64,000 nucleotides of DNA from Bradyrhizobium sp. Ash2021 (lineage in GTDB: Bacteria; Pseudomonadota; Alphaproteobacteria; Rhizobiales; Xanthobacteraceae), in NCBI RefSeq assembly GCF_031202265.1, contig NZ_CP100605.1, positions 310,001-374,000 on the forward strand, read 5' to 3'. The notes below the pieces were generated by a model. The model made no database searches and had not been told where the DNA came from. It saw only the letters and a program-made list of their open reading frames with translations. The position numbers were made by a program, and so were the translations under genes. Of the stretch, positions 35,161 through 51,945 are shown in pieces (within the stretch, counting starts at the first letter, position 1; each line of letters opens with the position of its first letter).

Positions 35161-36402
35161 GTCGTCCGCTTCAATTAATTTGAACGGAGATGGGTTTTGT
35201 GATTCGATTCCGTCGCAACGCGGGCGACGGAGGCAATCATGGCTGCCAAGGAGATTTCGGTAAAGAAGTATGTTGTTCGGCTGAGCGGCGAGGAACGCGA
35301 ACAGCTTGAAGCGCTGATACGGAAAGGCAAAAGCCCGGCGCAGCGGCTGCTGAAGGCGCGGATATTGTTGAAGGCCGATGTCTCGGAAGCCGGCGCAGGT
35401 TGGAGTGACAGCCGGATCATCAAGGCTTTGGACACCAGCGTTTCCATGGTTTACCGGGTGCGAAAGCAATTGGTGGAGGAAGGCTTCGAGGCTGTGTTGA
35501 GCCGCAAGCAGCGGGCGACACCGGGGGTTGCTCGGATTTTTGACGGCGAGAAGGAAGCCAAACTGATTGCCCTGGCTTGTTCCAAGCCGCCCAAGGGACG
35601 CGCGCGCTGGACCCTGCGGCTGTTGGAGAAAAAGGTCGTGGAACTGAAGATTGTCGATCGTGCCAGCGACTCAACGATCGGAAGGACGCTAAAAAAAACA
35701 TTCTCCAGCCCCACCGCCGACAGTGCTGGGTCATTCCGCCGAAGGCCAATACCCGTTCGTAGCCGCCATGGAGGACGTGCTGGCCGTCTACATGCGACCG
35801 CGCGATCCTGATCGTCCGCTGGTGTGCCTGGACGAGACCTCAAAGCAACTGCTCGCCGAAACGCGCCTGCCGATCCCGATGAAACCGGGACGTCCGGCCC
35901 GTTGTGATTACGAGTACGAGCGCAATGGGACCGCCAACCTCTTCATGATGTTTGCGCCGCTCGAAGGCTGGCGCCACGTCAAAGTCACCGATCGTCATAC
36001 CGCCGTGGACTACGCTCACGTCTTGAAAGACTTGGCCGATGTCCACTTCTCAAGCGCCAAGACCATTGTTCTGGTTCAGGACAATCTCAACATCCACAGC
36101 AAGGCGTCACTTTATGAAGCTTTCCCGGCTGCTGAAGCCAGGCGCCTGGTCGAGCGCTTCGAATGGCACTACACCCCAAAGCACGGCAGTTGGCTCGATC
36201 TGGCGGAATCCGAACTCGGCGTCCTGTCGTCCCAGTGCCTCGATCGCCGGATTCCCGACAAACAGACCCTCGTCGAGGAAATCGCTGCTTGGCAACACGA
36301 CCGCAACGCCAACCACACCAAGGCCAATTGGCACTTCTCAACATCCAACGCACGTATCAAACTCAAGCACCTCTACCCCTCAATCTGAATGAATCGGGCG
36401 AC
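35161..36402 (+). mobile_element. IS630-family insertion sequence, complete ends
   Basis: The left end GTCGTCCGCTTCA and the right end (read inwards) GTCGCCCGATTCA form imperfect inverted repeats, each bordered by the TA dinucleotide (35159-35160 and 36403-36404) that IS630/Tc1 elements duplicate. Length is about 1.24 kb. The transposase inside is spread over three frames. Confidence 0.85.
35239..36388 (+). pseudogene. IS630-family transposase, frameshifted
   Basis: Frame 1 (35239 to about 35695) holds the N-terminal helix-turn-helix (SDSRIIKALDTSVSMVYRVR). At an A8 run (about 35691-35698) the sense continues in a second frame, NILQPHRRQCWVIPPKAN, and from about 35750 in a third, FVAAMEDVLAVY, to 36388. 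The DDE residues are in CLDETSKQLL, VQDNLNIHS and the WLDLAESELG region. The A-run shift could be programmed, but the second shift near 35745 is not expected, so the gene is probably dead. Confidence 0.8.
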
Positions 36403-36548
36403 TAGAGACGGGAGACCAAAATCGAACAGAGAGACCGCGACCACGCACAGAGACGGCAAAGGCCGGAATGAGAACGGCGAAATTGCCCGCAAAAGCGGGC
36501 TATTTCTAATCAAAGCCAGATTGCGTGGTTTGGGAAGACTGGATGGTG

Positions 36549-36611
36549 AGGGCTCGAACCTGGGACCCGATGATTAAGAGTCATCTGCTCTACCAACTGA
36601 GCTATGCGCCC
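36549..36611 (-). tRNA. tRNA-Lys(CTT), 3' truncated
   Basis: The minus strand reads GGGCGCATAGCTCAGTTGG, with D-arm, anticodon arm GATGACTCTTAATCATC (anticodon CTT) and T-loop GGTTCGAGCCCT. After CCT the expected GG and the acceptor strand TGCGCCC are replaced by CACCATCC, so the T-stem is incomplete and the acceptor stem cannot form. This is 63 of about 76 nucleotides. It is a tRNA pseudogene, and the break lies close to where integrases normally cut. Confidence 0.85.
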
Positions 36612-36629
36612 GGAACCAGGTCCGGAAAG

Positions 36630-36950
36630 CCTCCGGAGATCGCCGAGGCGGCCGTGGTTCCAGCTCGCGATGAGTTCAAAGGCAAGGTCCCTGACCTCTA
36701 TGTGTCGTTAAAACCCGGGCTCACCCCAAACGAGGGTATCCGCAAACGCGTGGAAGACTCCGTGATCCGCGAGATCGGGCCGATTGCCCGTCCGCGCCGT
36801 GTGGTGATCGTTCCCGATATGCCAAAGACTCGCTCCGGCAAGATCATGCGCCGCGTCCTCGGGGCGATTTCGAACAACGAGGATGCCGGCGACATCTCGA
36901 CGTTGGCAAATCCTGAAGTCGTCGATGAGATCCGGAAGATCAAGGCCTAG
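36630..36950 (+). pseudogene. acs: acetyl-CoA synthetase, C-terminal fragment
   Basis: About 107 residues with the C-terminal domain of Acs: EIAEAAVVPARDEFKGKVPD, then PIARPRRVVIVPDMPKTRSG with KIMRR (the acetylatable catalytic Lys is in KTRSGKIMRR). The large N-terminal adenylation domain is absent; the frame upstream runs into the tRNA remnant. The natural stop at 36950 is kept. Confidence 0.85.
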
Positions 36951-37059
36951 GCCGAGGTCGTAGAATGTTGTCCTGAGAGAACGATCATTCGGAGCAGGGA
37001 GAAGCAATCAACTCCTGGAAAGATGGAGGACCGACAAAATTGTCGAACGCATCCGATCA

Positions 37060-37281
37060 TTGTTAGCGAGGTTCTCGGAGAACGAAGAGACTGTGCGCCA
37101 GCTAGTGGCGACAGACGCCAGCTTTGACGCGCTATGTGACAAATACCGCGAGGTTATCGGGCGCCTCAATCGCCTCGAGCGCCTCGATGATCTCGAAGCG
37201 GAGGTCGGGCGGCTCAAGGAGCGGAGAGCTGGGCTGGAGGAAGAGCTGCTGATGCGCATCGAGGGATATCAGCCACAATAG
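37060..37281 (+). CDS. small coiled-coil protein, possibly DUF465/YdcH-like
   Basis: 73 residues from TTG, or a few more if translation starts upstream at about 37040 (KIVERIRSLLARF continues the helix). FDALCDKYREVIGRLNRLER, then LEAEVGRLKERRAGLEEELL, forms a long helical hairpin of the YdcH type. It is preceded by GGAGGA at about 37025. The function is unknown. Confidence 0.5.
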   Translation: MLARFSENEETVRQLVATDASFDALCDKYREVIGRLNRLERLDDLEAEVGRLKERRAGLEEELLMRIEGYQPQ

Positions 37282-37777
37282 CGCAAGTTCTGCGAGACAC
37301 GGAGCGCGAAACAGCGGGGTCGACTTCCGCTTGTGGCCCTCCCGACGCTGAGCACTGAAGCCCTCTGCTGACTCACTGTGCAACTCCTCTACCAGAATCC
37401 TCTGGTCCTGATTGCATCAGGACGAACACTTGCGTACTTGAAAATGTGACCGACTCCCACGGACGTTGCCGCGGCGCGTAGAAACGTGCGTGGTGCGCCT
37501 CTAGGCAGAGCACGATCGTCGAAAGATAAGAGTCTGGTCGATCTCATTTTTGATTTTGATAAGTGCGTCAAGAATCAAGGGTCCGCACGACGCCTTATCT
37601 ACTTCCTAAGTGTCGATACGGGGATCTGAATCGTCGTCAGGGTTCCAGCGATATACGAAAAACCGATTGATGTGCATCGAACCATCGCGGCGGAAAAAAC
37701 CGTCCCTCAATCGGGATCGAGCTCTTGGGCAAGCTAAATTGAACCATCGTGGTCTCCACCATCAAGGATGACAGCCA
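37282..37777. other. gene-free stretch where sdhB would be expected
   Basis: About 500 bp downstream of sdhA. No SdhB-like iron-sulfur protein sequence (no Cys-rich motifs) was found in any frame, nor any other gene. Confidence 0.5.
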
Positions 37778-39571
37778 TCAATAAATGCGAGCTCTTGGCT
37801 CGATATATTGAATCTCGTTGGTCAAAGTGTAGGCGTGGATCGGTCTGTAGTCTAAACGAACCTTCCCATCCGACCCTACCCATGCGAGGGTGTGTTTCAT
37901 CCAGTTTCGATCGTCCCGATCGGGAAAATCTTCACGTGCGTGTGCTCCGCGGCTTTCGGAACGGGCGATTGCGGAATTCACCAAAGCCGTTGCCTGGAGA
38001 AGAAGATTTTCGAACTCCAAGGTTTCGACCAGGTCCGAATTCCAAATCATCGAACGGTCCGAAACGGCGATGTCGGAAAGACCGCTCCACACTTCGCCCA
38101 GTGCTTGCTTGCCTTCCTGCAAAATGGTTCCCGTCCGGAATACGGTAGCGAAGCTTTGCATGGCGCGCTGCATCTGCAGCCGGAGCACCGGGGTGGGCGT
38201 GCCACCCGTGGCGTTGCGCAGTCTGTCGAAACGAGCGAGCGTAGCTTGCCCCGCGTCAGAAGCCAGTTCGGGTTGCGGAGCTTTTGGGGTCAGTTTTTCG
38301 GCGCAGCGCAGCGCGGCGGCGCGGCCGAATACGACGATATCGAGGAGCGAGTTGCAGCCCAGCCGGTTCGCGCCATGCACCGAAACGCAGGCGGCCTCGC
38401 CGATGGCCATCAGGCCCTTGACGGTGGCGTCCGGATTGCCGTTGGAGGGCTGGATCGCTTCTCCGTGATAGTTGGCGGGGATGCCGCCCATGCAGTAGTG
38501 GGCTGTCGGCAGCACGGGAATCGGCTGCCGCGTCACGTCCACTCCAGAGAAGACGCGCGCCGATTCCGAAATGCCGGGCAGCCGCTCATGCAGCATCGCC
38601 GGATCCAAGTGGTCGAGATGAAGGTAGATGTGATCCTTCTTCGGACCCACCCCCCGCCCCTCGCGGATTTCGACCGTCATGGCGCGAGAGACGACGTCGC
38701 GTGACGCGAGATCCCGCGCGGAAGGCGCGTAGCGCTCCATGAAGCGCTCGCCCTCGGAGTTCACCAGGTAGCCGCCCTCTCCCCGCGCACCTTCCGTGAT
38801 CAGACATCCTGCCCCATAGATCCCGGTCGGATGAAACTGCATGAACTCCATGTCCTGCAGCGGCAGCCCGGCGCGAAGGACGATCCCGCCTCCGTCGCCG
38901 GTGCAGGTGTGTGCCGAGGTACAAGAGAAGTAGATCCTGCCGTAACCTCCGGTGGCTAGGATGACGGTCTGCGCCCTGAAGCGATGCAGGGTTCCGTCCA
39001 TCAGCGACCACGCGATGACGCCGCGGCACTCGTCATCCACCATGATGAGGTCGAGCACGAAATACTCGATGAAAAACTCAGCACCGACCCGTAGAGCTTG
39101 CCCATAGAGGGTGTGGATCAAAGCATGTCCCGTTCGATCCGCCGCCGCGCATGCACGGGGGACCGGGTTCTTGCCGAAGTCGCTCATATGCCCGCCGAAC
39201 GGCCTCTGGTAGATCTTTCCGTCTTCGGTACGGGAGAAGGGCATCCCCGCATGCTCGAGTTCGATCACCGTGGGTGCGGCTTGCCGGCACATGTATTCGA
39301 TCGCGTCCTGGTCGCCGAGCCAATCGGCCCCCTTGACCGTGTCGTACATATGCCATTGCCAACTGTCCTCGCCGAGGTTGCCGAGACTGGCGGCAATGCC
39401 CCCCTGGGCCGCGACCGTATGACTACGTGTCGGAAACACCTTTGTGATGCAGGCAGTCGTCAAGCCCGCTTCGACGGCGCCTTGGGTGGCGTGCAAACCG
39501 GCACCGCCGGCACCGACAACCACCACGTCAAACGTGTGGTCGATGAACGAGTATGCGCGTGTCGAACCCAT
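37778..39571 (-). CDS. sdhA: succinate dehydrogenase flavoprotein subunit
   Basis: 597 residues, full length. The FAD loop [13 protein letters not shown] is near residue 16, the FAD-linking His is H51 in [14 protein letters not shown], the substrate-binding HPTGIYGAG lies near 245, and the catalytic Arg region [15 protein letters not shown] near 350. In the cell it oxidises succinate to fumarate together with SdhB, C and D. Here sdhB is missing downstream and sdhC is frameshifted, so this copy can only work with subunits encoded elsewhere. Confidence 0.93.
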
Positions 39572-39587: not shown

Positions 39588-39974
39588 CTAGGATCGGATA
39601 CCGATCTTCAAAATGGCGTAGACGCCGGCGATTGCGACGACTGCAGAAAGGAAATTGTTCAACGCCAACGAGACCACCTTGGGCCCCTCATTGTGAACGT
39701 AGTCTTCGAGAATGACCTGCATCCCGATGCGCATATGCCATGTTCCGGATAGGACGAGCAGCAGCATCGGGATTGCCACCAATGGATTGCCGAGATAGCT
39801 GCGGACCGTCGCGTAATCAGCGCCCGTCAGCGCGACAAGCAACGCGATAAGAAATAGCGCGAGCGGCACGTTTGCTGCAGCCGTCAGCCGCTGGATCCAG
39901 AAATCCCGAGTGCCGGTTTTCGCCGAGCCGAGCCCGCGGACGCGGTTCAAAGGGGAGCGCATATCTTTCATCAA
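39588..39974 (-). CDS. sdhD: succinate dehydrogenase membrane anchor subunit D
   Basis: 128 residues with three transmembrane helices. [20 protein letters not shown] and [20 protein letters not shown] hold the haem-ligand and quinone-site region (His near residue 80 and Tyr-His-Asn near 92). It overlaps the sdhC end by ATGA and lies 16 bp before sdhA. It appears intact. Confidence 0.88.
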
Positions 39975-40383
39975 AGTGCTCCTCTCATCCAGATTCCGAC
40001 GGCCCAGACCAGGATGGTGAGGATTACGGAGCCGATGAGCGTTGCACGCGCCATCAGGTTGGCTGAACGCAAATCAAATCCCCGTCCAATATCCCAGGCG
40101 AAATGACGCAGGCCGCCTAACAGGTGATGAATTAGCGCCCATGTGAAACAGAACAGAACAGAACGAATTCGCCGGGCAGCGAAGTAATGCAGGCTTCGAA
40201 TGCTCGATAGGATTTCGGGCCTTCCGCCGCCGATATCAGCCACCAGGTAAGAAGGAGCGTTCCGAAATAGAGCGCCGCGCCCGTCGTCCGGTGCGCGATC
40301 GACATCATCATGGTCATCGAGCGTCGATAGATCGCGAGGTGCGGAGAAAGTGGTCTCGGCCTCAATCGTGCTTCGATTGACAT
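39971..40383 (-). pseudogene. sdhC: succinate dehydrogenase cytochrome b556 subunit, frameshifted
   Basis: From MSIEARLRPRPLSPHLAIYR the frame is typical SdhC (SIAHRTTGAALYFGTLLLTW) up to about 40160. There the sequence TTCTG is present three times in tandem and the frame ends SVSHGR and a stop. With only two copies the reading would go on correctly as VLFCFTWALIHHLLGGLRHF, with the haem His in this segment, down to 39971. A single five-base slippage therefore separates broken from intact. Confidence 0.88.
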
Positions 40384-40520
40384 TCGTCGTTCTCCATCCA
40401 CCACGAAAGCGCGAAGACGTTGCCGTTTCCTGCGTGAGTTTCAGAGCTCGTTCACTCAAGCGATCGGTGCGCGCGATCCGGCAAGACGCTGATTTTAGCG
40501 TTTGGACACATCCCTCACTA

Positions 40521-40570
40521 TAGATATATAGAACATTACTTATTGACATTATAGCATTACTAGTTAGCAT
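40521..40570 (+). promoter_or_regulatory. candidate promoter/operator of the xre-hyf operon
   Basis: An AT-rich island in otherwise GC-rich DNA. TTGACA (40543-40548) and TAGCAT (40565-40570) are spaced by 16 bp; a second TAGCAT lies at 40552-40557. Upstream, TAGATATAT (40521-40529) recurs before the paralogous XRE gene at 55623-55631 in the same orientation relative to the gene, so it is a candidate binding site for these regulators. Confidence 0.4.
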
Positions 40571-40620
40571 GCAAGAATGATGTTTGATATTCATCCAAAT
40601 TCTGGCCGTAGGGCAATCCG

Positions 40621-40941
40621 ATGATCACGTCGGCTCAATTGCGGGCTGCCAGGGTGCTTCTTGGCATTGATCAGCGTCAACTCGCGGAATTGTCCGGACT
40701 TTCCGTGCCCACGATTCAACGCATGGAAGCGAGTGAGACAATGGTTCGGGGCAATGTCGATTCGCTGGTGAAGCTGATTACGGCTCTCGACGCCGCCGGT
40801 ATTGAGATGATCGACGAAGGAGCCGTTAGCAATTCGCAGGGACGCGGTGTGCGGCTGAAAATCAATTCCGGATCGGCAAGGACCTATTTGGACCATCAGA
40901 TAGAAAACAAGGCATCGAGCGGAACGAGGGTGCGCAGGTAA
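40621..40941 (+). CDS. XRE-family regulator heading the hyf-like operon
   Basis: 106 residues. The helix-turn-helix occupies about residues 6-60: QLRAARVLLGIDQRQLAELS, then LSVPTIQRMEASE, followed by NVDSLVKLITALDAAGIEMI typical of XRE proteins of rhizobia. The basic tail after residue 75 is variable. Its TAA shares bases with the ATG of hyfB (TAATG), so regulator and complex are co-translated. It is about two-thirds identical in its core to the protein encoded at 55270-55590. Autoregulation of the operon is a natural inference. Confidence 0.85.
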   Translation: MITSAQLRAARVLLGIDQRQLAELSGLSVPTIQRMEASETMVRGNVDSLVKLITALDAAGIEMIDEGAVSNSQGRGVRLKINSGSARTYLDHQIENKASSGTRVRR

Positions 40942-42956
40942 TGTCGGCTGTCGTTTTGCAAATGGGTTGTGTTGCGGGATTGCTTGGCTTGGCAGTTCTG
41001 GCGATCGTTCTGAGCCGCTCAAAGATCGCTACGGCCGTCATCTACGGCGCCACGTTGGCGGTGTCCGTGATTGCGTCGGCCGGGTCGATCCGCTGGCTGC
41101 TCGGCGGCGCGGCTGGCGCCACCGAACTGACCTTGCCGGTCGGATTGCCGTGGCTCGGCGCCCATTTCCGCCTCGATGCATTGGCCGCGTTCTTCCTTGT
41201 TGTCGTCAATCTGGGGGGAACGGCAGCAAGTCTCTACGGACTCGGCTACGGCCATCACGAACAGGCGCCACACCGCGTGCTGCCGTTCTTCCCCGCCTTC
41301 CTGGCCGGCATGAACCTCGTCGTTCTGGCGGACGACGCGTTTTCCTATCTGCTGTGCTGGGAATTCATGTCGCTCGCTTCCTGGGCGCTGGTCATGGCGC
41401 ATCACCGCGAAACCGGCAACGCGAAGGCGGGATATGTCTATCTTGTGATGGCAAGCTTCGGCACGCTGGCGCTGCTGCTGGCGTTCGGCCTGCTGGCGGG
41501 CCCGGCGGGAGATTATGGATTTGCAGCAATTCGCGCTGCCCAACACACGCCCTACGTGGCGACGTTGGTCTTGATCTTGATGTTGCTCGGAGCCGGTTCA
41601 AAGGCCGGCCTGGTGCCGCTGCACGTTTGGCTGCCGCTCGCGCATCCGGCCGCGCCGAGTCATGTTTCGGCGCTGATGAGCGGCGTCATGACCAAGGTTG
41701 CGATCTACGGTTTCATCCGCGTGATATTTGATCTGCTGGGACCGCCCACGTGGCCGGCGAGCGTGATTGTCCTTTTCCTTGGCGGCATCACTGCTGTCAT
41801 GGGAATCCTGTATGCCATGATGGAAAAGGACATCAAGCGCCTGCTGGCCTACAGCACGATTGAAAATGTCGGCGTCATCTTCGTGAGTCTTGGCCTCGCG
41901 CTTGCCTTCCAGGCCAACGGCTTGAAGCCGGTGGCGGCCCTCGCCCTCACGGCGGCACTGTTCCATGTACTCAACCACTCCTTCTTCAAGAGTCTGTTGT
42001 TTTTCGGGGCCGGCGCTGTCCTGACGTCGACCGGCGAGCGGGACATGGACAAGCTTGGCGGCCTCATCCACCGGATGCCGTTCACCAGCTTCGTCTTTCT
42101 GGTCGGCTGCGTCGCCATATCGGCGCTTCCGCCGTTTAATGGCTTCGTGTCGGAATGGCTTGTCTTCCAGGCCGTGTTGCAAAGCCCGGAGTTACCTCAA
42201 TGGGCCCTGAAGATCATGGTGCCCGCGGTCGGGGCGCTGCTGGCCTTGGCTGCAGCATTGGCAGCCGCGTGTTTCGTGAAGGCATTCGGCGTGACTTTTC
42301 TCGGACGACCGCGCAGCCCGGCCGCGGAAAACGCTAAAGAAGTCGACCGCTACTCGCTTTCGGCGATGTTCCTCCTGGCCATACTTTGCCTGTTGGCCGG
42401 AATCCTGCCGGGATTGGTCATCGATGGGCTTTCGCCGATCACGGTGCAGATTCTCGGTAGCCGCATGCCGATACAGGCTAACGAGCCGTGGCTTTCGATC
42501 GTGCCAATTGCGGCGAGCCGCAGTTCATACAATGGTTTGCTTGTGATGGTATTCATCGCGGTATCCGCCTCACTCGCGGTTTTTTTCATCCATCGCTTCG
42601 CCTCTCATGCCCTGCGGCGGGGACCAGCCTGGGGCTGCGGTTTTTCCGATCCGACCCCCGCCGCTCAGTATTCGGGTGGAAGCTTCGCTCAACCGATCCG
42701 TCGTGTTTTCGGTACGCTCATGTTCCACGCCCGCGACCATGTCGACATGCCGGCCCCTGGAGATATCAGGCCAGCGCGTCTCAGGATCGAATTGCACGAT
42801 TTGGTCTGGGAGGGAATGTATCTGCCCCTCGTGGGCGCGGTCGGCTTCGCCTCCGATCGGCTCAACCGTCTCCAGTTCCTGACCATCCGGCGATACCTCA
42901 GTCTCGTTTTCGCCACCCTCGTCACACTACTGCTGGTGCTCGCGATATGGTCTTGA
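40941..42956 (+). CDS. hyfB: hydrogenase-4 component B-like antiporter subunit
   Basis: 671 residues, about 15 transmembrane helices, Mrp/NuoL-N family. Proton-channel features are the Glu in LCWEFMSLASWAL near residue 140, the broken helix with Lys in GAGSKAGLVPLHVWLPLAHP near 220 and the second Lys in EKDIKRLLAYSTIENVG near 300. The C-terminal extension with GPAWGCGFSDPTPAAQYSGG is the one found in HyfB/HycC. It is the first membrane subunit of the operon and overlaps hyfC by 10 bp. Confidence 0.88.
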   Translation: MSAVVLQMGCVAGLLGLAVLAIVLSRSKIATAVIYGATLAVSVIASAGSIRWLLGGAAGATELTLPVGLPWLGAHFRLDALAAFFLVVVNLGGTAASLYGLGYGHHEQAPHRVLPFFPAFLAGMNLVVLADDAFSYLLCWEFMSLASWALVMAHHRETGNAKAGYVYLVMASFGTLALLLAFGLLAGPAGDYGFAAIRAAQHTPYVATLVLILMLLGAGSKAGLVPLHVWLPLAHPAAPSHVSALMSGVMTKVAIYGFIRVIFDLLGPPTWPASVIVLFLGGITAVMGILYAMMEKDIKRLLAYSTIENVGVIFVSLGLALAFQANGLKPVAALALTAALFHVLNHSFFKSLLFFGAGAVLTSTGERDMDKLGGLIHRMPFTSFVFLVGCVAISALPPFNGFVSEWLVFQAVLQSPELPQWALKIMVPAVGALLALAAALAAACFVKAFGVTFLGRPRSPAAENAKEVDRYSLSAMFLLAILCLLAGILPGLVIDGLSPITVQILGSRMPIQANEPWLSIVPIAASRSSYNGLLVMVFIAVSASLAVFFIHRFASHALRRGPAWGCGFSDPTPAAQYSGGSFAQPIRRVFGTLMFHARDHVDMPAPGDIRPARLRIELHDLVWEGMYLPLVGAVGFASDRLNRLQFLTIRRYLSLVFATLVTLLLVLAIWS

Positions 42957-43903
42957 TCTCAGACATTCTTGTGCAGGGCATACAGATGGCGCTGGTGCTG
43001 CTTCTCGCGCCGCTACTGACCGGCTTCGTGCGCAAGATCAAGGCTCGGCTGGTGCGTCGCAAGGGAGCTTCGATTTTTCAGCCGTATCGCGATCTGCTGC
43101 GGTTGCTCCGCAAGGAGGTGGTTTTGGCCGACAACGCCTCATGGCTGTTCCGGGTAACGCCGTACGTGACGTTTGCTGCGATCTGGGTTGCCGCCGCCTT
43201 GGTGCCGACTTTTGCGACCGGCCTCCTGTTCAACTGGACCGCAGATCTTATCGCCATTGTCGCGTTGCTGGGAAGCGCACGCTTCTTTCTGGCGCTCGCA
43301 GGCATGGACGTCGGCACCAGCTTTGGCGGAATCGGTTCCAGCCGCGAAGTCATGATCGCAGCGCTTGCAGAACCGGCGATGCTCCTGATTGTGTTTTGCA
43401 TGGCCCTCGTTGCCGGCTCGACCCAACTTTCGACGGTCGCAGATTTCATGGGTTCGTCCGATGTCGGATTACGAGTATCGCTCGGAATGGCGATGATTGC
43501 GCTCATTATGGTGGCGCTTGCGGAAAACGCGAGAATCCCAGTCGACAATCCGGCTACGCATCTGGAACTGACCATGGTGCATGAGGCGATGGTCCTCGAA
43601 TATTCCGGACGCCATCTGGCGATGATTGAATTCGGCGCCTTTCTCAAGCTCTTGCTCTATATCTCGCTGATCGCCTGCGTGTTCTTCCCCTGGAAGATAG
43701 CGTTGTTCGGGACCGGCGCCTTGGCATACACGATCGGCGCTGGCGCCTACATCGTCAAGCTTGCGGTTGCCGGCTTTTTCCTGGCGCTGTTCGAGACCGC
43801 CACGGCGAAAATGCGCGTTTTTCGCGTTCCGCAATTTCTCGGTGCGGCGCTGATGCTGGGCTTGCTCGGTACGCTACTTCTATTCGTGTCGAGGAGTCTT
43901 TGA
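42947..43903 (+). CDS. hyfC: hydrogenase-4 component C-like subunit (NuoH family)
   Basis: 318 residues, about eight helices. The NuoH/HycD signatures are RRKGASIFQPYRDLLRLLRK near residue 38, GGIGSSREVMIAALAEPAML near 124 and the acidic loop ENARIPVDNPATHLELTMVH near 185. This subunit links the soluble electron-transfer arm to the proton-pumping arm and lines the quinone-like cavity in complex I. The ATG at 42947 is chosen because a longer frame would lie inside hyfB. Confidence 0.88.
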   Translation: MVLISDILVQGIQMALVLLLAPLLTGFVRKIKARLVRRKGASIFQPYRDLLRLLRKEVVLADNASWLFRVTPYVTFAAIWVAAALVPTFATGLLFNWTADLIAIVALLGSARFFLALAGMDVGTSFGGIGSSREVMIAALAEPAMLLIVFCMALVAGSTQLSTVADFMGSSDVGLRVSLGMAMIALIMVALAENARIPVDNPATHLELTMVHEAMVLEYSGRHLAMIEFGAFLKLLLYISLIACVFFPWKIALFGTGALAYTIGAGAYIVKLAVAGFFLALFETATAKMRVFRVPQFLGAALMLGLLGTLLLFVSRSL

Positions 43904-44565
43904 TGCACGGTCTCGCCTTCGACATCTCCCATACACTTGCCGGCGGGCTCGTCCTGATCAGCTTCATGATGCTGTACCAGGATCGGCTTTATTCGCTGCT
44001 CAACGTCTTTGCACTCCACGCCGTGGTACTGGCCCTTTCCGTGGCCTGGCAAGCCTACATTCAGGATGCGCCTCATCTTTACGTAACCGCCGCAATCGCG
44101 CTTGTCTTCAAGGCGATCGTCATCCCAGTGGCGCTACACCGCATCGTCAAGCAACTCGGGATTCATCGCGACATCGAGTCGGCGGTCGGTATCGGCCCGA
44201 CTATGCTGGCTGGAATGGGTCTGGTCGCCCTCTCGATGGTGCTGATGCTACGGGTCACCGCGGAAGCTGACCCGCTGGCGCGCGAAGACCTTGCCTTCGC
44301 CCTGTCGGTCGTGCTGCTCGGCCTGCTGGTGATGGTGACGCGCCGCAACGCCGTCAGCCAGGTCGTGGGCTTCATGTCGCTGGAGAACGGATTGGTGCTG
44401 GCTGCGACCGGCGCTAAAGGCATGCCGCTCGTCGTCGAGATCAGCGTTGCGTTCTCTATCCTGATCGCCTTCATCGTCATCGGCATTTTCCTGTTCCGAA
44501 TTCGCGAACGCTTCGATTCCGTTGATGTCTCCGCGCTCGACGACTATCAAGGCGAACGACGATGA
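43903..44565 (+). CDS. hyfE: hydrogenase-4 component E-like membrane subunit
   Basis: 220 residues, about six helices, related to a fused NuoK-like unit. SYMB-like landmarks are the buried acidic region in SLENGLVLAATGAKGMPLVV near residue 155 and the C-terminal FRIRERFDSVDVSALDDYQG. The ATG overlaps the hyfC stop (TGATG), and the end overlaps hyfF by ATGA. It belongs to the proton-translocating membrane arm. Confidence 0.85.
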   Translation: MHGLAFDISHTLAGGLVLISFMMLYQDRLYSLLNVFALHAVVLALSVAWQAYIQDAPHLYVTAAIALVFKAIVIPVALHRIVKQLGIHRDIESAVGIGPTMLAGMGLVALSMVLMLRVTAEADPLAREDLAFALSVVLLGLLVMVTRRNAVSQVVGFMSLENGLVLAATGAKGMPLVVEISVAFSILIAFIVIGIFLFRIRERFDSVDVSALDDYQGERR

Positions 44566-46013
44566 ACATTCATTTCTTCAATCCCGTGATCGCCGTCCTG
44601 CTGATACCAATTGGCGCGGCGGCGCTGCTGGAGGTCTTGCCGGGTTATCGGCTGACGGCTCGGCTGAACGTCGTCGCGAGCTTGGCGACATTCCTTTCGG
44701 CTCTATCGCTGTTCGTGATCGAACGTCCGCAGCCTGCGCCTTACGTGCTGGTGGACGATCTGAACATCGTCTTCATTGTGCTCAACACCTTCGTCGGTTT
44801 CACGACCAGCATCTTCAGCGCCAGCTACATCGCCCACGAACTCGAGACCGGCCGGTTGACGTCGGCCTATTTGCGTTTCTATCACGCGATGTATCAGATC
44901 ATGATGTTCGGCATGAACCTCGCCTTCGTGTCGAACAATATCGGCCTGATGTGGGTCGCGGTGGAAATCGCCACCCTGTCGACGGTGCTGATGGTCGGCA
45001 TCTACCGTACCCACGCAGCACTTGAAGCGGCGTGGAAATATTTTATCCTCGGCAGCGTCGGAATCGCGTTCGCACTGTTCGGCACCATCCTGGTCTACAT
45101 GGCGGCGCGTCCGGTGGTAGGGGAAGGCCAGGATGCCATGGTCTGGACGCTCCTGATCGAGCATGCGTCAACCTTCGATCCTGCTCTTCTCAACGTTGCT
45201 TTCGTGTTTCTGTTTCTCGGATACGGAACGAAGGTCGGCCTCGCGCCGCTGCATGCCTGGCTGCCTGACGCGCATGCCGAGGGTCCTACTCCGATATCTG
45301 CCGTGCTGTCGGGCCTGCTGCTGAACGTCGCGCTCTATGCGCTGCTGCGCTTCAAGATCCTGCTCGCCGCCAATCCGGCGGCGATTGCTCCCGGACCCTT
45401 GATGGTGACGATGGGCCTGATCTCGCTCGTCTTCGCCGCGTTCATGCTCTACCGTCGCCGCGACATCAAGCGCCTGTTCGCCTACTCCTCGATCGAACAC
45501 ATGGGCATCATCGTGTTCGCGTTCGGAATGGGCGGCCCGCTCGCTAATTTTGCCGGGCTTCTGCATATGGTGATGCATAGTCTGACCAAGTCGGCGATCT
45601 TCTATGCTGTCGGTCACATTTCGCAGATCAAGGGCACGCAGAAAATTGCCAGGATACGCGGCTTGACGGTGACCCATCCTGCGCTTGGCTGGGGCCTGGT
45701 GATGGGCGTCGCCGCAATCGCGGGATTGCCGCCGCTTGGAATCTTCATGAGCGAGTTTCTCGTCGTGAGTTCCACCTTTGCGCGGCAGCCGTTGCTCGCG
45801 AGCGTGCTTGTGTTCGGGATCTTGCTGGCCTTCGGCGCACTGATGTTGCGCCTGACAAGCGTCGCATTCGGCAACCCCCGTGGCAGTACGGCCTCAGCCG
45901 AGGCTTCCTATGTGCCGATGTTTGCGCATCTCTCGCTGGTTCTGGGCGCGGGTATCTATCTTCCCTCACCGATTGTTGTCTGGTTCCAGCATGTGGCTCG
46001 TCTACTTGGATAG
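44562..46013 (+). CDS. hyfF: hydrogenase-4 component F-like antiporter subunit
   Basis: 483 residues, about 14 helices, second Mrp/NuoN-type antiporter subunit. The Glu in MWVAVEIATLSTVLMVGIYR lies near residue 133, the Lys in GYGTKVGLAPLHAWLPDAHA near 225 and another Lys in RRDIKRLFAYSSIEHMGIIV near 310, all as needed for proton transfer. It begins four bases inside hyfE and is followed after 18 bp by hyfG. Confidence 0.88.
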   Translation: MNIHFFNPVIAVLLIPIGAAALLEVLPGYRLTARLNVVASLATFLSALSLFVIERPQPAPYVLVDDLNIVFIVLNTFVGFTTSIFSASYIAHELETGRLTSAYLRFYHAMYQIMMFGMNLAFVSNNIGLMWVAVEIATLSTVLMVGIYRTHAALEAAWKYFILGSVGIAFALFGTILVYMAARPVVGEGQDAMVWTLLIEHASTFDPALLNVAFVFLFLGYGTKVGLAPLHAWLPDAHAEGPTPISAVLSGLLLNVALYALLRFKILLAANPAAIAPGPLMVTMGLISLVFAAFMLYRRRDIKRLFAYSSIEHMGIIVFAFGMGGPLANFAGLLHMVMHSLTKSAIFYAVGHISQIKGTQKIARIRGLTVTHPALGWGLVMGVAAIAGLPPLGIFMSEFLVVSSTFARQPLLASVLVFGILLAFGALMLRLTSVAFGNPRGSTASAEASYVPMFAHLSLVLGAGIYLPSPIVVWFQHVARLLG

Positions 46014-46031
46014 TTTGAGGATTAACAGGAT

Positions 46032-47543
46032 ATGCCATCGCTGATTGATCTCATGCTGGAGGGCCGCGAGATCCAGCAACACAGCCCGTGGCCGCGAGCC
46101 ATGGTCGATGCTTCCGTTTGGAATTTTGCAGCAAACGAGCTCGCACAGGAACGCTGGAACCTGCTGGGCCTTTGGGGAGAACCCTCGACGGTGCACATGG
46201 CGATTATGGATGAGCACACAGCGGAAATCGCGATCATCAGCCTGGATTGTCTCGATCGCAGTTATCCCTCGGTCGGCCAGCATCATCCGCCGGCGATTCG
46301 ATTGGAGCGCACCATTCGCGATCTTTTTGGACTGGCAGCGGAAGGCTCTCCCGATCCACGCCCCTGGCTCGATCACAATCGTTGGGGCACGCGCTTCCCG
46401 TTGGGAGATCGCATCGACGCCTTGTCGCAGGCATCACCCTATCGCTTCCTGCCGGTGGTGGGCGATGGGCTGCATCAGATTGCGGTTGGTCCCGTGCATG
46501 CCGGGATTATTGAGCCTGGGCACTTCCGGTTTACGGCGAGCGGGGAGACTGTTGTTCGGTTGGAAGGGCGGCTGGGGTATACCCACAAGGGTATTGAGGG
46601 GCTCATGACCGGAGCCAGCCTTGAACAGGCCACCCGCCTCGCCGGACGCGTATCCGGCGACAGCACCGTCGCCTATACTTATGCATTTTCGCGCGCGGCT
46701 GAAGCGGCGCTCGGACTTGTCGTGCCTGATCGCGCGGTCTGGCTGCGCGCGCTGTTCGCTGAACTAGAGCGGCTTGCCAACCATCTTGGTGACATCGGCG
46801 CCATCTGCAACGACGCTTCCTTCACGCTGATGCACGCTCATTGCAGTGTGCTACGCGAGAGCGTCCTGCGCGCATCCAATACCGCATTTGGTCATCGTCT
46901 GATGCGAGACATGATCGTGCCCGGGGGTGTCACCCGCGACCTCGACAATGACGGGATAGAAACCATCCAGGCGACGCTGGATAATGTCCGCCTGCACTTT
47001 CCCGCTTTGATCGAACTGTACGACAACACCGCTTCGCTGCAGGATCGTACTGTCGATACGGGCGTGCTTAAGCCCGCGTTGGCCAGGCAGTACGCCGCCG
47101 GAGGCTACATAGGCCGCGCTTCTGGGCGATCCTTCGACGCGCGGCGGACCCTTGCCTATCCACCCTATGACAACCTGCGCTTCGATGTACCTGTCCTCGG
47201 CGACGGCGACGTCAACGCGCGCGTCTGGATCCGTGTTCGCGAGGTTGAGCAAACTCTTTCCCTCATCGACCAGATATTGAACCGGCTTCCCAAAGGCCCG
47301 CTAGGTACACACGCTGGGCTATTTCGGGAGCCGCGGGAAGGCATGGCGATCGTCGAGGGATTCCGCGGCGACGTCCTGGTTTGGCTCCGCCTGCGGGATG
47401 GCCGGATCGAACGGTGCCACCTGCGCGACCCATCCTGGTTTCAGTGGCCACTGCTGGAGGCAGCAATCGAGGGCAATATCGTCGCGGACTTCCCGCTCTG
47501 CAACAAGTCGTTCAACTGCTCCTACTCTGGCCATGATCTCTAA
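46032..47543 (+). CDS. hyfG: HyfG-like large subunit lacking the NiFe ligands
   Basis: 503 residues: a NuoC-like N-terminal third and a NuoD/hydrogenase-large-like rest. The region GRLGYTHKGIEGLMTG near residue 180 and AELERLANHLGDIG near 245 are typical. The NiFe motifs are changed. L1 RxCGxC reads RVSGDS (residues 206-211), with both Cys as Ser. The C-terminal motif PCxxC reads NCSYS (residues 495-499), with one Cys as Ser. Three of four nickel ligands are gone, so hydrogen chemistry at a NiFe site is ruled out on known principles. A redox or quinone role as in complex I or Ehr complexes is more likely. Confidence 0.88.
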   Translation: MPSLIDLMLEGREIQQHSPWPRAMVDASVWNFAANELAQERWNLLGLWGEPSTVHMAIMDEHTAEIAIISLDCLDRSYPSVGQHHPPAIRLERTIRDLFGLAAEGSPDPRPWLDHNRWGTRFPLGDRIDALSQASPYRFLPVVGDGLHQIAVGPVHAGIIEPGHFRFTASGETVVRLEGRLGYTHKGIEGLMTGASLEQATRLAGRVSGDSTVAYTYAFSRAAEAALGLVVPDRAVWLRALFAELERLANHLGDIGAICNDASFTLMHAHCSVLRESVLRASNTAFGHRLMRDMIVPGGVTRDLDNDGIETIQATLDNVRLHFPALIELYDNTASLQDRTVDTGVLKPALARQYAAGGYIGRASGRSFDARRTLAYPPYDNLRFDVPVLGDGDVNARVWIRVREVEQTLSLIDQILNRLPKGPLGTHAGLFREPREGMAIVEGFRGDVLVWLRLRDGRIERCHLRDPSWFQWPLLEAAIEGNIVADFPLCNKSFNCSYSGHDL

Positions 47544-47555
47544 GGACGGCACAAG

Positions 47556-48089
47556 ATGCGCAAGCTGCTGTTTGAAAGTCTGTTCCGCCTGCCATTCACC
47601 GAGAAACCGCCGTCCGCGGACGACGCAGCGGTGGCAGAACTCGCCGCTTCTGTCGGGCGAGCGGCGCGGAGGCGTCTCGGCCGAAGTCTCTCGATACGCG
47701 AGGTAGACGCAGGATCCTGCAACGGATGCGAGCTCGAGATCCATGCCCTGAACAATGCCTACTACGATGTCGAGCGCTTCGGCATCCGGTTTGTTGCCTC
47801 ACCGCGCCATGCCGATGTGTTGATGGTGACCGGTCCCGTTACCAAGAATATGCGCGAAGCGCTGGAGCGCACATATCATGCGATCCCCAATCCCAAGTGG
47901 GTCGTCGCGGTCGGAGATTGCGGTCGAGATGGAGGGTGTTTCGCCGGAAGCTACGCGGTGGTCGGAGGGGTATCACAAGTCGTTCCCGTTGATATTCATA
48001 TTCCCGGCTGTCCCCCACCGCCGACCCGGATCTTGCAGGGACTGCTTTCTCTGCTCGATCAGACGGCCAAAAGCGCCACTTCCCCTTGA
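47556..48089 (+). CDS. hyfI: HyfI/NuoB-like 4Fe-4S subunit
   Basis: 177 residues. Cys 55 and 58 (GSCNGCELE), Cys 122 (GDCGRDGG) and Cys 152 (PGCPPPP) can bind one 4Fe-4S cluster next to the HyfG site. The spacing C-x2-C is the hydrogenase-small type, unlike the CC pair of NuoB. No gene for the polyferredoxin subunit (HyfA or HyfH) or a formate dehydrogenase follows, so the input partner is not encoded here. It starts 12 bp after hyfG. Confidence 0.88.
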   Translation: MRKLLFESLFRLPFTEKPPSADDAAVAELAASVGRAARRRLGRSLSIREVDAGSCNGCELEIHALNNAYYDVERFGIRFVASPRHADVLMVTGPVTKNMREALERTYHAIPNPKWVVAVGDCGRDGGCFAGSYAVVGGVSQVVPVDIHIPGCPPPPTRILQGLLSLLDQTAKSATSP

Positions 48090-48559
48090 GGATCTGGGGC
48101 CGACTTCGATTATTTCAAGCCGGCTTGATTGCAGGGTGCATTCAGACCGCAATTGTCCTTGTCATTACGCCGTTGATGATTCTTTTCGCGCAGTATCGGG
48201 ATGATGATTCCAACGCGTCTGGTCGCGACCCGGCGTCCTCGGTGATCTCCTTGTTGCCTCTAATCTATGTGGTATTCGCCGCGGGGGTGGCTTTGACAAA
48301 GCACCGCTACCTAACGCTGACGACCACGCGAATCCGCCACGCATCGCGACTCATGTCATCTTCCGAGCCTGAGCGCGCGGCGGGTACGATCGCCATCTGT
48401 CTCTTGTTTGCATCGATCGGATGCGCATCATTTGCCTTGCAGCCGCCTCCCGCCAGGCGCCGTGGTAAAGATAAATCCGGGAGCATACGATCGTACCGCG
48501 TCGATAAGCTGCCTGCTCCCCGCTATATAGCCGCCCAAGCCGCCGTAGGCTTTAGCTAA
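48086..48559 (+). CDS. membrane protein, C-terminus overlapping the hemA remnant
   Basis: From a TTG sharing bases with the hyfI stop, the frame gives two clear hydrophobic helices ([20 protein letters not shown] and [20 protein letters not shown]) and a third ([19 protein letters not shown]). After about 48440 the frame reads DNA that is hemA on the other strand, so the natural C-terminus is lost. It could be a seventh operon gene that was cut by the rearrangement. No family was recognised. Confidence 0.4.
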
Positions 48560-49296
48560 CGTTCCTTCGATGACGTCGACCAGTCCGGAAACCCCGTCGC
48601 GTTCGGCGACGCCGGCCCCCGTCGGTCCGTACATTCCCACGGCGTGGACTTCGCGGCAGTACGTCAACGCATTATGGCGTCTAGCGAGTTCACAGATCGC
48701 GCCCACGGGAGCGAAGTCGCCGTCCATGGAATATAGACTCTCGAACAGCACGATCTTGGGGCGGCTCTCGCCTGCGGATGTCAGTAGCTGCTTGAGATGA
48801 TCGAGATCGTTGTGCCTGAAGATCTCTTTTGCACAGTTGGACTGGTTTACGCCTTCGATCATTGAGTTGTGGTTCAACTCGTCGGAAAGGATGAGACAGT
48901 TCGGAATGAGCTTGGCGATTGTCGAGATGCTGGATTGGTTTGCGACGTATCCCGAGGTGAACACCAGCGCCGCTTGCTTTGCATGCAGGTCCGCAAGCTC
49001 CCGCTCCAATTCAACCAAGGGAAGGTTCGTCCCTGCGATGTTGCGTGTGCCGCCGGATCCGGTTCCCAAACGGCGTGCCGTGTCGACCATCGCCTGGACC
49101 ACGGCCATGTTCTGGCTAATGCCGAGATAATCGTTCGAGCACCAGATCGTTACTTCGCACCGCTGCTCGAATGCCAGACGGCGCAAGGCAACCGGCCGGC
49201 GATTCTCTCAAGATCGACAAACGTCCTGTACCGCTGTTCCTCCTTCAGGCGGAGGGTGGCACCCGCGAAAACTGTCTCGAAATCGCAGTAGACAGC
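48428..49296 (-). pseudogene. hemA: 5-aminolevulinate synthase, broken
   Basis: The N-terminal frame (about 49296 to 49160) has [20 protein letters not shown] second frame from 49186 has [40 protein letters not shown], the PLP Lys in [18 protein letters not shown] and [16 protein letters not shown], where homology ends. The PLP-ring Asp in [10 protein letters not shown] is replaced ([12 protein letters not shown]). The missing last third, the frameshift and the lost Asp make it non-functional. Confidence 0.82.
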
Positions 49297-49568: not shown

Positions 49569-50324
49569 ATGAAGATTCTCGGTCGATACAAGGGCAAATT
49601 GGGTGACATCGCGATCTGGGAAAGCGAAAAGACCCGTGATCGCTTCTATCTCGAAGGAGAGACCTTTCAGAGCCAAAGCTCGGCGGCCGGAGAGAGTCGA
49701 CTCCCATACGTAAAAATGATGGAAACGTTTTTGAGCGACGCCAAGAACGTCCTTCTGCTCGGCTGTGGCGGGGGGAATCTCGCGACAATGCTGGCTCGCT
49801 CGGGCAAGAGCGTGACCGTCGTCGACCACAATCCGGTCAGCTTCGACCTCGCCAAGCGATTCTTCGGAATGCCGAAGGAAGTTACCTGCTTCGTCGCAGA
49901 TTTTAAGGAGTATCTCGCCGCCGAGACGCGCAGCTTCGACGGCATCGCGATTGACGTGGGCGGACCCGGGTTTTGTTATGAAGACAAATTCGATCCGACA
50001 ACCTGTCATTCGATCACGGCACGACTGAGCCGAGGCGGACGCGCCATCCTAAACATGCTTGTCGCGACCGACTTCGACGCGGCGCCTGACCTGATAGGAG
50101 GTGACCTGGCCGAAGGTCACTTGAGTTCGTGGATATTCGATCAGCCGGGTCTTCTGAACCGAAATGTCCTTCTCGCCTGCCTGCCGAAGGCCCGCCGTGC
50201 CGCGAACAAGCGCTATATGGCGGAATTGTCTACGACCAACGGCCAGCTTTGGACGCTGCGGCGCCCCCGTCGGCCTTCCCACCAGAGCCAACCTGTTGTC
50301 GTCGAGATCGCATGCGCAGACTGA
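49569..50324 (+). CDS. spermidine-synthase-like SAM-fold protein (copy 1)
   Basis: 251 residues. The N-terminal strands resemble the spermidine synthase lid (FYLEGETFQSQSSAAGESRL, then PYVKMM), the nucleotide loop is VLLLGCGGGNLATMLARSGK near residue 60, the acidic VVDHNP follows, and a DGIAIDVGGPGF segment near 120 stands where spermidine synthases have DxxDPxGP. The changed segment makes polyamine synthesis doubtful, and a related methyl- or aminopropyl-transferase is possible. It is the first gene of a run with pckA (22 bp apart). A paralogue lies at 55856-56602. Confidence 0.7.
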   Translation: MKILGRYKGKLGDIAIWESEKTRDRFYLEGETFQSQSSAAGESRLPYVKMMETFLSDAKNVLLLGCGGGNLATMLARSGKSVTVVDHNPVSFDLAKRFFGMPKEVTCFVADFKEYLAAETRSFDGIAIDVGGPGFCYEDKFDPTTCHSITARLSRGGRAILNMLVATDFDAAPDLIGGDLAEGHLSSWIFDQPGLLNRNVLLACLPKARRAANKRYMAELSTTNGQLWTLRRPRRPSHQSQPVVVEIACAD

Positions 50325-50346: not shown

Positions 50347-51945
50347 ATGTTGGAACAGGGTATCCGCAATCCGGAATACGGGGCAGATAAATTCGGCTTC
50401 ACGGATCTTGAGGCGGTCAATTGGAATTTGTTGGAGCCGGAACTTTACGAACGCGCCCTTGCCGGCGGCGAAGCTCAACTCACGTCCGGCGGCGCGCTCT
50501 GCGCCGAGACCGGCGTACATACCGGACGCAGTCCGAAGGACAAGTATATCGTTTGCGACGACCTGACGGACGCGACCGTCTGGTGGGAAAACAACGGCAA
50601 GATGACGCCAGCGCAATTCGCGCGTTTGTACCAGGACTTCATCGCGCACTCGCACGGCAAGACGTTGTACGCCCAGGATCTTCGCGCTGGCGCCGACGCG
50701 GAATTCGGAGTGCGGACGCGCGTCTTCACCCAACTCGCCTGGCACTCGCTGTTCATCCGCACACTGTTACTCAGGCCGAACCGAAGCGAGCTTGCGACCT
50801 TCGTTCCGGAGCTCACGATCTACTGTTGCCCGACGTTCAAGGCGGACCCTAAGCGCCACGGCGTCCGAAGCGACACGGTGATTGCGATCGATTTTACCAA
50901 AAAGATCGTCCTCATCGGGGGAAGTTCGTATGCGGGAGAGATCAAGAAGGCCGTCTTCACGACCATGAACTACTTTCTTCCCGCCCAGGCCGTCATGCCG
51001 ATGCATTGTTCCGCAAACGTCGGGCCAAAAGGCGATGCCGCGATCTTCTTCGGCCTGTCGGGGACCGGAAAAACGACGCTCTCCGCCGACCCCGGTCGGA
51101 CGCTGGTCGGTGACGACGAACACGGGTGGGGCCCCAAAGGCATCTTCAATTTCGAGGGCGGCTGCTACGCCAAGGCGATCAAACTGAGCCCTGAGGCCGA
51201 GCCGGCCATATATGCCACCACGCAGCGCTTCGGGACTGTCCTGGAAAACGTCGTTTTCGATCCGATCACCCGTGTTTGCGATTTCGACGACGGCTCAAAG
51301 ACGGAAAACACGCGCGCGGCCTATCCGATGCATTTCATACCCAATGCTTCGAAAAACGGGCGCGCAGGACATCCGAAAAATCTCGTCATGTTGACCGCCG
51401 ACGCGTTCGGGGTGATGCCGCCTATCGCCAAGCTGACAGCGGCGGAAGCCATGTTTCACTTTTTGTCGGGATATACCGCCAAGGTTGCCGGAACGGAAAA
51501 GGGCGTGATTGAACCCGAGGCTACCTTTTCGACCTGCTTCGGTGCGCCGTTCATGCCCCGTCATCCCTCGGTTTACGGAAATCTATTGCGTTCCCTGATT
51601 GCGAAGCACAACGTGAACTGCTGGCTGGTTAACACCGGCTGGACAGGCGGAAAATATGGCGTGGGACAGAGGATGCCCATCAATGTCACCCGCACCCTGC
51701 TGACGGCCGCGCTCAACGGCATGCTCAACGATGGCGAATTCTACATCGACAAGCATTTCGGCTTCCAGGTACCTGTAGCCGTCAAGGGGGTCGACAGCCG
51801 CATCTTGAAGCCGCGGGAGACATGGAGTGACAAGGAGGCGTTCGACGTCGCCGCCCGAAAGCTCGTGCAGATGTTCAAGGACAATTTCGCCAAATTTGAA
51901 AGTGTCGTTCAGGCGGATGTCATGGCCGTTGCAATGTCCGCATAG
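50347..51945 (+). CDS. pckA: phosphoenolpyruvate carboxykinase (ATP)
   Basis: 532 residues, full length. It converts oxaloacetate and ATP to phosphoenolpyruvate, the entry to gluconeogenesis from organic acids. Landmarks are the substrate Arg in [15 protein letters not shown] near residue 61, the metal His in [14 protein letters not shown] near 220, the P-loop [14 protein letters not shown] near 236 and the second kinase motif [10 protein letters not shown]. All catalytic residues look intact. It sits beside the SpeE-like gene and before a DUF983 gene, separated from it by a 9-bp-stem hairpin. Confidence 0.95.

Follow-up and report, generated by a model that had tools for sequence, protein, structure and literature searches.

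Gene content of the locus

The window, a stretch of 64,000 nucleotides from Bradyrhizobium sp. Ash2021 (contig NZ_CP100605.1, positions 310,001 to 374,000), carries an operon in which a gene for an XRE-type regulator is followed by hyfB, hyfC, hyfE, hyfF, hyfG and hyfI (Table 1). These genes form an intact seven-gene unit on the plus strand, at 40621–48089, and resemble the hyqRBCEFGI operon described as an 'endo-hydrogenase' in Azorhizobium caulinodans ORS571 (PMC2650096, PMC2930871, PMC3357923; all publications are cited here from excerpts of their text). Four gene pairs overlap (XRE/hyfB, hyfB/hyfC, hyfC/hyfE and hyfE/hyfF), the first by one base, which is the last of the XRE gene and the first of hyfB; gaps of 18 and 12 bases precede hyfG and hyfI, respectively. 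The operon lacks hyfA, hyfD and hyfH. The coordinates of the open reading frames (ORFs) and the profile matches confirm a preliminary description, made from the sequence alone, of six coupled hyf genes and an XRE gene overlapping hyfB.

That description also stated that no formate dehydrogenase or polyferredoxin gene is attached. Neither these nor NuoI/HyfH-like genes were found among the ORFs adjoining the operon, and clustering of the neighbours in 102 loci found, besides the six core genes and the XRE gene, a SpeE-like gene in 11 loci. No electron-input partner gene recurs beside the operon in these loci, which rules out a conserved formate dehydrogenase, ferredoxin or similar partner at this place.

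Table 1. Features of the Hyq-type operon (positions in the window)
Feature	Position	Strand	Basis
Candidate XRE operator, degenerate palindrome AGATATATAGAACATTA	40522..40538		3 mismatches to TGATGTNNNNNACATCA, the consensus from 42 of 81 XRE regions
XRE-type regulator (HyqR-like), 106 residues	40621..40941	+	PF01381; 67.5% identity to A. caulinodans HyqR, residues 1–80
hyfB (HyqB), NuoL-like antiporter subunit, 671 residues	40941..42956	+	PF00361; NCBIfam hydrogenase 4 subunit B above cut-off
hyfC (HyqC), NuoH-like subunit, 318 residues	42947..43903	+	PF00146
hyfE (HyqE), membrane subunit, 220 residues	43903..44565	+	NF008556 hydrogenase 4 membrane subunit, 84.9 bits, under the cut-off of 136
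hyfF (HyqF), NuoM-like antiporter subunit, 483 residues	44562..46013	+	PF00361; NCBIfam hydrogenase 4 subunit F above cut-off
hyfG (HyqG), fused NuoC/D- and HycE-like large subunit without NiFe ligands, 503 residues	46032..47543	+	PF00346, PF00329; top PDB match 7z0s_E (HycE), sequence and fold
RVSGDS, HyfG residues 206–211, replacing RxCGxC	46647..46664	+	Alignments to HycE, Cys-bearing relatives and family rows
NCSYSGHDL, HyfG residues 495–503 (C-terminus), replacing DPCxxCxxR	47514..47540	+	Alignments to HycE, Cys-bearing relatives and family rows
hyfI (HyqI), NuoB/HycG-like [4Fe-4S] subunit, 177 residues	47556..48089	+	PF01058; four cluster Cys kept; top PDB match HycG

Conservation of the large subunit, the cluster subunit and the membrane subunits

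The top PDB match of HyfG, both by sequence and by Foldseek fold (E 2.3e-27, TM 0.82 by query length), is HycE of the Escherichia coli formate hydrogenlyase (FHL). The HMMER alignment of the two proteins is ungapped at the C-terminus, placing DPCYSCTDR over NCSYSGHDL, and the same register was obtained from an alignment with two Cys-bearing large subunits (from Azospirillum and Pantoea) and three NuoD proteins. In this register the four nickel-iron (NiFe) ligand positions of HycE are occupied by Ser208, Ser211, Ser497 and Gly500, none of them a cysteine, and Cys496 aligns with the proline of DPCYSCTDR. The motifs RVSGDS and NCSYS, given in the preliminary description as replacements of the Cys motifs, are present as described, but its count of three serines at four metal-binding cysteines came from a C-terminal register that was off by one residue; the alignment with HycE and NuoD that it had proposed fixes the register and shows all four ligands replaced. 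Even with Cys496 counted as a ligand, four cysteines are found in none of the 160 family rows (the window counted twice).

These rows were kept from 195 sources with a TBLASTN match, those under 300 bits or identical to another being dropped; the filter excludes NuoD, the two FHL rows and a Rhodococcus row, and leaves 159 distinct rows, as the window is present twice. A further alignment took in 29 of the 48 sequences first tried. The combination Ser-Ser-Ser-Gly occupies the four ligand positions in 140 of the 159 distinct rows; taken singly, Ser208 is kept in 156, Ser211 in 145, Ser497 in 153 and Gly500 in all 159. Two rows (L126 and L183) have a single Cys, at the first ligand position, and no row has more than one. 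The motifs of these two rows read RTCGDS and RSCGDS, the other three HycE-register positions being non-Cys. Motifs of the RVSGDS/NCSYS type are common to alpha- through gammaproteobacteria, beyond chance. The earlier wording that the subunit 'has lost' its NiFe site, which implies a local event, therefore does not hold: the ligand-less motif is shared by the whole clade. A recent loss or a sequencing error of the Cys codons is ruled out, since a second copy in the same genome agrees with the 159 rows, and a hyfG with intact ligands, named beforehand as contrary evidence, was found neither as that copy, which has the same motifs, nor among the family rows.

At its C-terminus HyfG ends level with Arg537 of HycE, as NuoD does, and the two Cys-bearing relatives extend 32 residues further; HycI cleaves HycE after this arginine. 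The predicted structure of HyfG has a pTM of 0.84. Asp210 is invariant (159 of 159 rows), and the position of the canopy Asp is Asn495 in every row (159 of 159). The excerpts of PMC9474812 describe the canopy Asp of hydrogenases and complex I as strictly conserved, and place in the proton path the HycE residues that align with HyfG E161, H251, R362, E404 and R445; in an alignment of 47 rows, the loop residue Glu161 is kept in 46 and the other four residues in all 47. Cys259, Cys490 and Cys496 of the window's protein are counterparts of A. caulinodans residues 258, 491 and 497. All three were termed completely conserved in 2012 (PMC3357923); they are present together in 131 of the 159 rows and all absent from five (L077, L078, L183, L190 and L194).

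In HyfI, C55, C58 and C122 are invariant (161 of 161 rows), C152 is a cysteine in all rows but one (160 of 161) and C128 is variable, so the claim that HyfI retains four cluster Cys stands. The charged columns of HyfB, HyfC, HyfE and HyfF are conserved. The Lys and Glu residues that the antiporter subunits were said to retain are indeed kept, E141 and K221 of HyfB in 93 and 92 of 93 rows, and E135 and K224 of HyfF in 176 and 174 of 177.

Distribution, genomic background and control

Family members were separated by a gap in the match scores: their E-values are below 1e-100, and all further matches but one, a truncated fragment (G563), are at 3e-59 or weaker. Chromosomes as well as plasmids of alpha-, beta- and gammaproteobacteria carry them, and one occurs in a metagenome-assembled genome of Acidobacteriota (L148); a more distant form lies on a Rhodococcus plasmid (L189, 2987–10275, gene order I-B-C-E-F-G), with the HyfG motifs RISGDT and NKSFNLSYAGNDL. 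A maximum-likelihood tree joins 46 rows (support 96/93) and then Rhodococcus (100/99 for 47), leaving the two Cys-bearing rows outside; Rhodococcus forms a long branch of unsure placement. Two NuoD-like proteins with RICVP at the ligand site (L025 and L027) fall outside both NuoD and Hyq in the tree. The window operon is a new member of the conserved and widespread Hyq family, whose complexes are of the Ehr type and related to complex I and to group 4 hydrogenases. Public labels such as 'nickel-dependent hydrogenase large subunit', 'hydrogenase expression protein HypE' and 'NADH-quinone oxidoreductase subunit C' may mislead genome-based counts of H2 users.

The operon of A. caulinodans was located in one of 391 family genomes by an exact match to part of a published primer, and four primer parts match there. 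It has the same seven genes in the same order, regulator first, with 60% identity in HyfG, 76% in HyfC and 67.5% in the XRE protein (residues 1–80). Both large subunits contain RVSGDS and NKSFNCSYxGHDL, and the four-Cys feature of the N2-type cluster of HyqI is also present in HyfI; the three HyqG cysteines are shared by the window but not by the wider family. A. caulinodans differs in having NifD, hup genes and, according to the papers, NifA-dependent expression, while the genome of the window has no NifD, no HypD, no NiFe large subunit above cut-off and two Hyq copies. The 2009 paper termed Hyq a canonical Ni,Fe-hydrogenase (PMC2650096), whereas the absence of the NiFe Cys motifs from HyqG was stated in 2012 for eight genera (PMC3357923), so that the core of the preliminary observation was already in print. 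The present analysis adds the register of the four ligands, Asn495 and Asp210, the distribution of HypD and NifD, and an upstream palindrome; no earlier report of the distribution, the two residue changes or the palindrome was found among the open-licence PMC papers searched, figures and supplements excluded.

The genome comprises 9,704,287 bases in two contigs. The window operon lies on the smaller one (375,468 bases), and a second complete Hyq copy with the same HyfG motifs on the larger, 9.3-Mb contig. The ratio of non-synonymous to synonymous substitution rates (dN/dS) between the two copies is 0.04–0.14 across the seven genes. To judge from these ratios, the window operon is under purifying selection and is not a decaying hydrogenase-4. 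Searches of this genome gave no match to HypD (models PF01924 and TIGR00075, other Hyp proteins not being searched), none to FeFe hydrogenase, no NifD and no PF00374 match (NiFe large subunit) above cut-off. A Cys-bearing large subunit elsewhere in the genome was ruled out by the same search, as none was found. The only NuoI above cut-off lies 8 kb from NuoD of complex I, and an additional NuoI/HyfH paralogue was rejected, two further matches being weak and below cut-off.

Among hand-picked, mostly complete and hence non-random genomes (36 for HypD, 65 for NifD), HypD is missing from 16 of 36 HyfG-positive genomes, NifD from 29 of 49, and both from 15 of 36. Within the genus, NifD is present in 11 of 20 genomes with HyfG and in 9 of 16 without it (Fisher p = 1); by subgroup, as grouped by us, it is present in 4 of 13 genomes with the closer form and in 6 of 9 with the 65% form. 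As the genome of the window has no HypD, no NiFe large subunit above cut-off and no NifD, NiFe chemistry on nitrogenase-derived H2 is not the role of Hyq here, and on these gene searches its general role cannot be that of a NiFe enzyme which recycles H2 from nitrogenase.

Dedicated control by the XRE protein had been suggested from the gene overlap. Of 91 usable loci, 44 have an XRE homologue next to hyfB; the 91 were left from 110 after removal of 12 without hyfB and seven with less than 400 bp upstream, and among them are the Rhodococcus locus, two true FHL loci and one duplicate (L135 and L188, the same gene). Five loci have the XRE gene beyond the distance limits, four of them only just. 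The 20 loci of the gammaproteobacterial-type set include 11 with a longer regulator gene of another kind, placed upstream of hyfB or next to it; the single such regulator scanned has HTH_3 and Cupin_2 domains. The palindrome TGATGTNNNNNACATCA, with at most two mismatches and within 150 bp before the XRE start, was found in 42 of 81 XRE regions. None of the 32 regions lacking XRE has it, nor does either of two intervals farther upstream in any of the 81, and it turns up in 0.5% of shuffles. The palindrome lends support to dedicated control as a candidate operator that the XRE protein may bind. This assignment is weakened by the choice of the consensus by eye from the same regions that were then counted, by the relatedness of these regions, which are not independent, by the use of mononucleotide shuffles and by the position of both copies in the genome of the window outside the two-mismatch limit. 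It is also weakened by the published NifA-dependent expression of hyq in A. caulinodans, where a NifA box and a sigma-54 promoter were reported upstream of the regulator gene. A scan for such sites gave 7/12 and no TGT-N10-ACA in both copies of our genome, but A. caulinodans itself scored only 8/12 and none despite its published sites, the best scores being shuffle-like.

Further observations concern the surroundings of the operon. The element ATGTTTGATATT (40580–40591), shortly before the XRE start, has exact matches in the chromosomal copy, A. caulinodans and the relative G700. In the chromosomal copy (L004, 14375–14695, minus strand) and in L097, L111, L123, L125, L141 and L156, hyfI is directly followed by a second, similar small XRE gene in the opposite orientation; in the window such a gene lies about 14 kb beyond the start of hyfB. 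The recurrent SpeE-like gene, of the methyltransferase fold, is found at 49569–50324 and 55820–56602, at L004 14903–15703, at L190 1999–2832 and in L169; in Paraburkholderia it is directly 5' of hyfB, and no functional link was seen. Between hyfI and the SpeE-like gene lies a 5-aminolevulinate synthase fragment (48428–49186, minus strand, profile positions 44–278 of 402). A second sdh cluster by the operon has sdhC (39971–40404, minus strand) split over two frames and no sdhB seen in the minus-strand frames of 36300–37780, and is therefore apparently broken or mis-sequenced. A gene resembling ATP-type phosphoenolpyruvate carboxykinase was recognised by eye at 50347–51945; together with sdh, the hemA fragment and hyf it makes up a patch of central-metabolism paralogues on the small contig.

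Interpretation and comparison with known systems

The Hyq complex is almost certainly not a NiFe hydrogenase, to judge from its genes, because the ligands are replaced, the C-terminal extension is missing and the genome has neither HypD nor PF00374 above cut-off. It is probably a redox-linked ion pump: the conservation of the cluster Cys suggests that the HyfI cluster is redox-active, and the conserved charged columns of HyfB, HyfC, HyfE and HyfF, together with the HycE-type proton-path residues, point to ion pumping. The explanation that we prefer as a whole, with somewhat better than even confidence, is a minimal complex-I relative with six subunits, in which a cytoplasmic redox reaction is coupled to ion pumping without a NiFe centre. 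The proton-pumping complex proposed in the preliminary description, which left its electron partners unnamed, is thereby supported as a complex-I/Mrp-like complex. We infer its donor, acceptor, direction and coupling as follows. A soluble low-potential carrier, ferredoxin- or flavodoxin-like, would dock at the face of HyfI exposed by the missing NuoI/HyfH subunit and exchange electrons with the single [4Fe-4S] cluster. Electrons would also pass between the cluster and a small oxidant, for which ubiquinone is the likeliest candidate, in a pocket at the junction of HyfG, HyfI and HyfC; the former ligand shell of this pocket is now Ser208, Asp210 and Ser211 with Asn495, Ser497 and Gly500. The change of charge could reach the antiporter subunits HyfF and HyfB by way of HyfC and HyfE. 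We expect the reaction to be reversible and the XRE protein to control the operon via the palindrome just upstream. Quinone as the partner is a tentative suggestion with rather less than an even chance, a guess by analogy because the quinone residues of complex I are absent from HyfG.

Several observations weigh against this explanation. We know of no solved precedent for a one-cluster complex without a bound donor subunit. In HyfG the Tyr of NuoD is replaced by Gly209, the loop His by Ile160 and the canopy Asp by Asn495, and the model of HyfG has pLDDT below 50 at both pocket segments (134–185 and 478–503). The stated assembly contamination of 4.19% means that the small contig taken alone could be foreign, the chromosomal copy being on the 9.3-Mb contig. 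The published genetics of A. caulinodans also stands against it. Deletion of hyq slowed diazotrophic growth (7.2 to 8.8 h). At 20 uM O2 the release of H2, in pmol per 10^9 cells per min, rose 15-fold on deletion, from 12 to 175; below 1 uM O2 it amounted to 61,000 in a hup mutant and 14,000 in a hup hyq double mutant, and a nifK hup strain still released 56,600 (PMC3357923). In nodules H2 was released from the double mutant only (PMC2930871). FeFe hydrogenase has no match in the A. caulinodans genome, where the PF00374 matches, HyqG aside, are confined to 661,661–673,350 (within 12 kb), presumably hup, so that no simple indirect source of H2 is at hand. These genetic data stand in open conflict with a non-hydrogenase function.

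The Azorhizobium authors propose that Hyq is a hydrogenase linked to the quinone pool and to ion pumping; it would then be nickel-free and reversible, and would handle H2 and protons in the HyfG pocket beside the HyfI cluster by means of a novel metal or chemistry. Besides the deletion phenotypes in the three papers (PMC2650096, PMC2930871, PMC3357923), the retention of E161 and the other HycE proton-path residues and the lack of another hydrogenase outside the presumed hup region of A. caulinodans favour this possibility. However, HyfG has neither the NiFe ligands nor the maturation end, the five rows listed above lack every one of the 'completely conserved' Cys, NifD is missing from the genome of the window as from 29 of 49 HyfG-positive genomes, and according to the excerpts of the 2012 paper a cell-free assay was not at hand (PMC3357923). 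We consider it improbable. The more specific proposal of a fourth chemical class of hydrogenase, [4Fe-4S]-linked and nickel-free, in which a pocket of conserved Ser, Asp and Asn would turn over H2 and protons reversibly and drive a complex-I-type ion pump or be driven by it, seems more improbable still; if true, such an enzyme would be present in bacteria that may have neither nitrogenase nor HypD, on which NiFe centres depend. A NiFe hydrogenase with unusual Ser/Asn ligands or with metal bound through Cys496 would account for the co-occurrence of Cys259, 490 and 496 in 131 of 159 rows and for the hup and maturation genes of A. caulinodans (PMC2650096), yet HypD is missing from the genome of the window and 16 of 36 HyfG-positive genomes, the C-terminal extension is absent and the same five rows have none of the three Cys, which makes it scarcely credible.

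Two other explanations leave hydrogen aside. With the pump unchanged, the pocket may take another small substrate; examples would be compounds of sulfur, the substrate type of MBS, and nitrogen or carbonyl compounds. MBS shows that the pocket is able to switch its substrate (PMC7684303), and the residues of both hydrogenases and quinone sites are absent from HyfG, but four cluster Cys are present in HyfI and three in MBS, and no recurrent neighbouring gene points to a substrate; on balance this is unlikely. That the complex is a cation/proton antiporter, its cluster merely structural or a sensor and without redox turnover, would fit the well-conserved antiporter subunits, the missing electron-input subunit and the alteration of both classic sets of catalytic residues. 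The almost invariant cluster Cys and a strongly conserved pocket with invariant Asp210, Asn495 and Gly500 suggest chemistry instead, and we regard a pure antiporter as quite unlikely. The contradiction around Hyq has stood since 2012, the genetics indicating H2 handling and the sequence a protein that could not hold a NiFe centre. The genome of the window separates the two questions, as it has Hyq without nitrogenase H2 or NiFe chemistry in the background. With six subunits and one cluster, the redox-linked pump would be a very small natural relative of complex I and could show how much the electron-ion coupling of complex I needs.

Among known systems, the Ehr complexes are related to group 4 hydrogenases, have antiporter subunits and lack the Ni/Fe ligands (PMC6349859), as does the window operon, and the subunit profiles and ligand counts bear out its earlier assignment to this type. 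Ehr is a loose grouping, however, and the examples in the excerpts of that paper are proposed to pair with formate dehydrogenase, of which none is attached here. The group 4 NiFe hydrogenases Hyf and Hyc share with the operon HyfB and HyfF proteins above the NCBIfam hydrogenase-4 cut-offs and a large subunit whose top match is HycE, but they have four Cys ligands and a C-terminal extension, both missing from HyfG, and a NuoI-like subunit (HyfH/HycF), missing from the operon; the Azospirillum and Pantoea operons contain hyfA, hyfD, hyfH, hycH/I or hyp genes, none of which lies beside ours. MBS, the sulfane sulfur reductase of Pyrococcus furiosus, is likewise related to complex I, has an incomplete set of NiFe ligands and lacks the quinone residues, but its proximal cluster has three Cys where HyfI keeps four (PMC7684303). 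Complex I has homologous subunits, and its NuoD gene ends at the same place as hyfG; it differs in its NADH module (NuoEFG) and NuoI, which the operon lacks, in the quinone His and Tyr and the canopy Asp, which are Ile160, Gly209 and Asn495 in HyfG, and in the adjacent Cys of its cluster (PMC7684303), where HyfI has CxxC.

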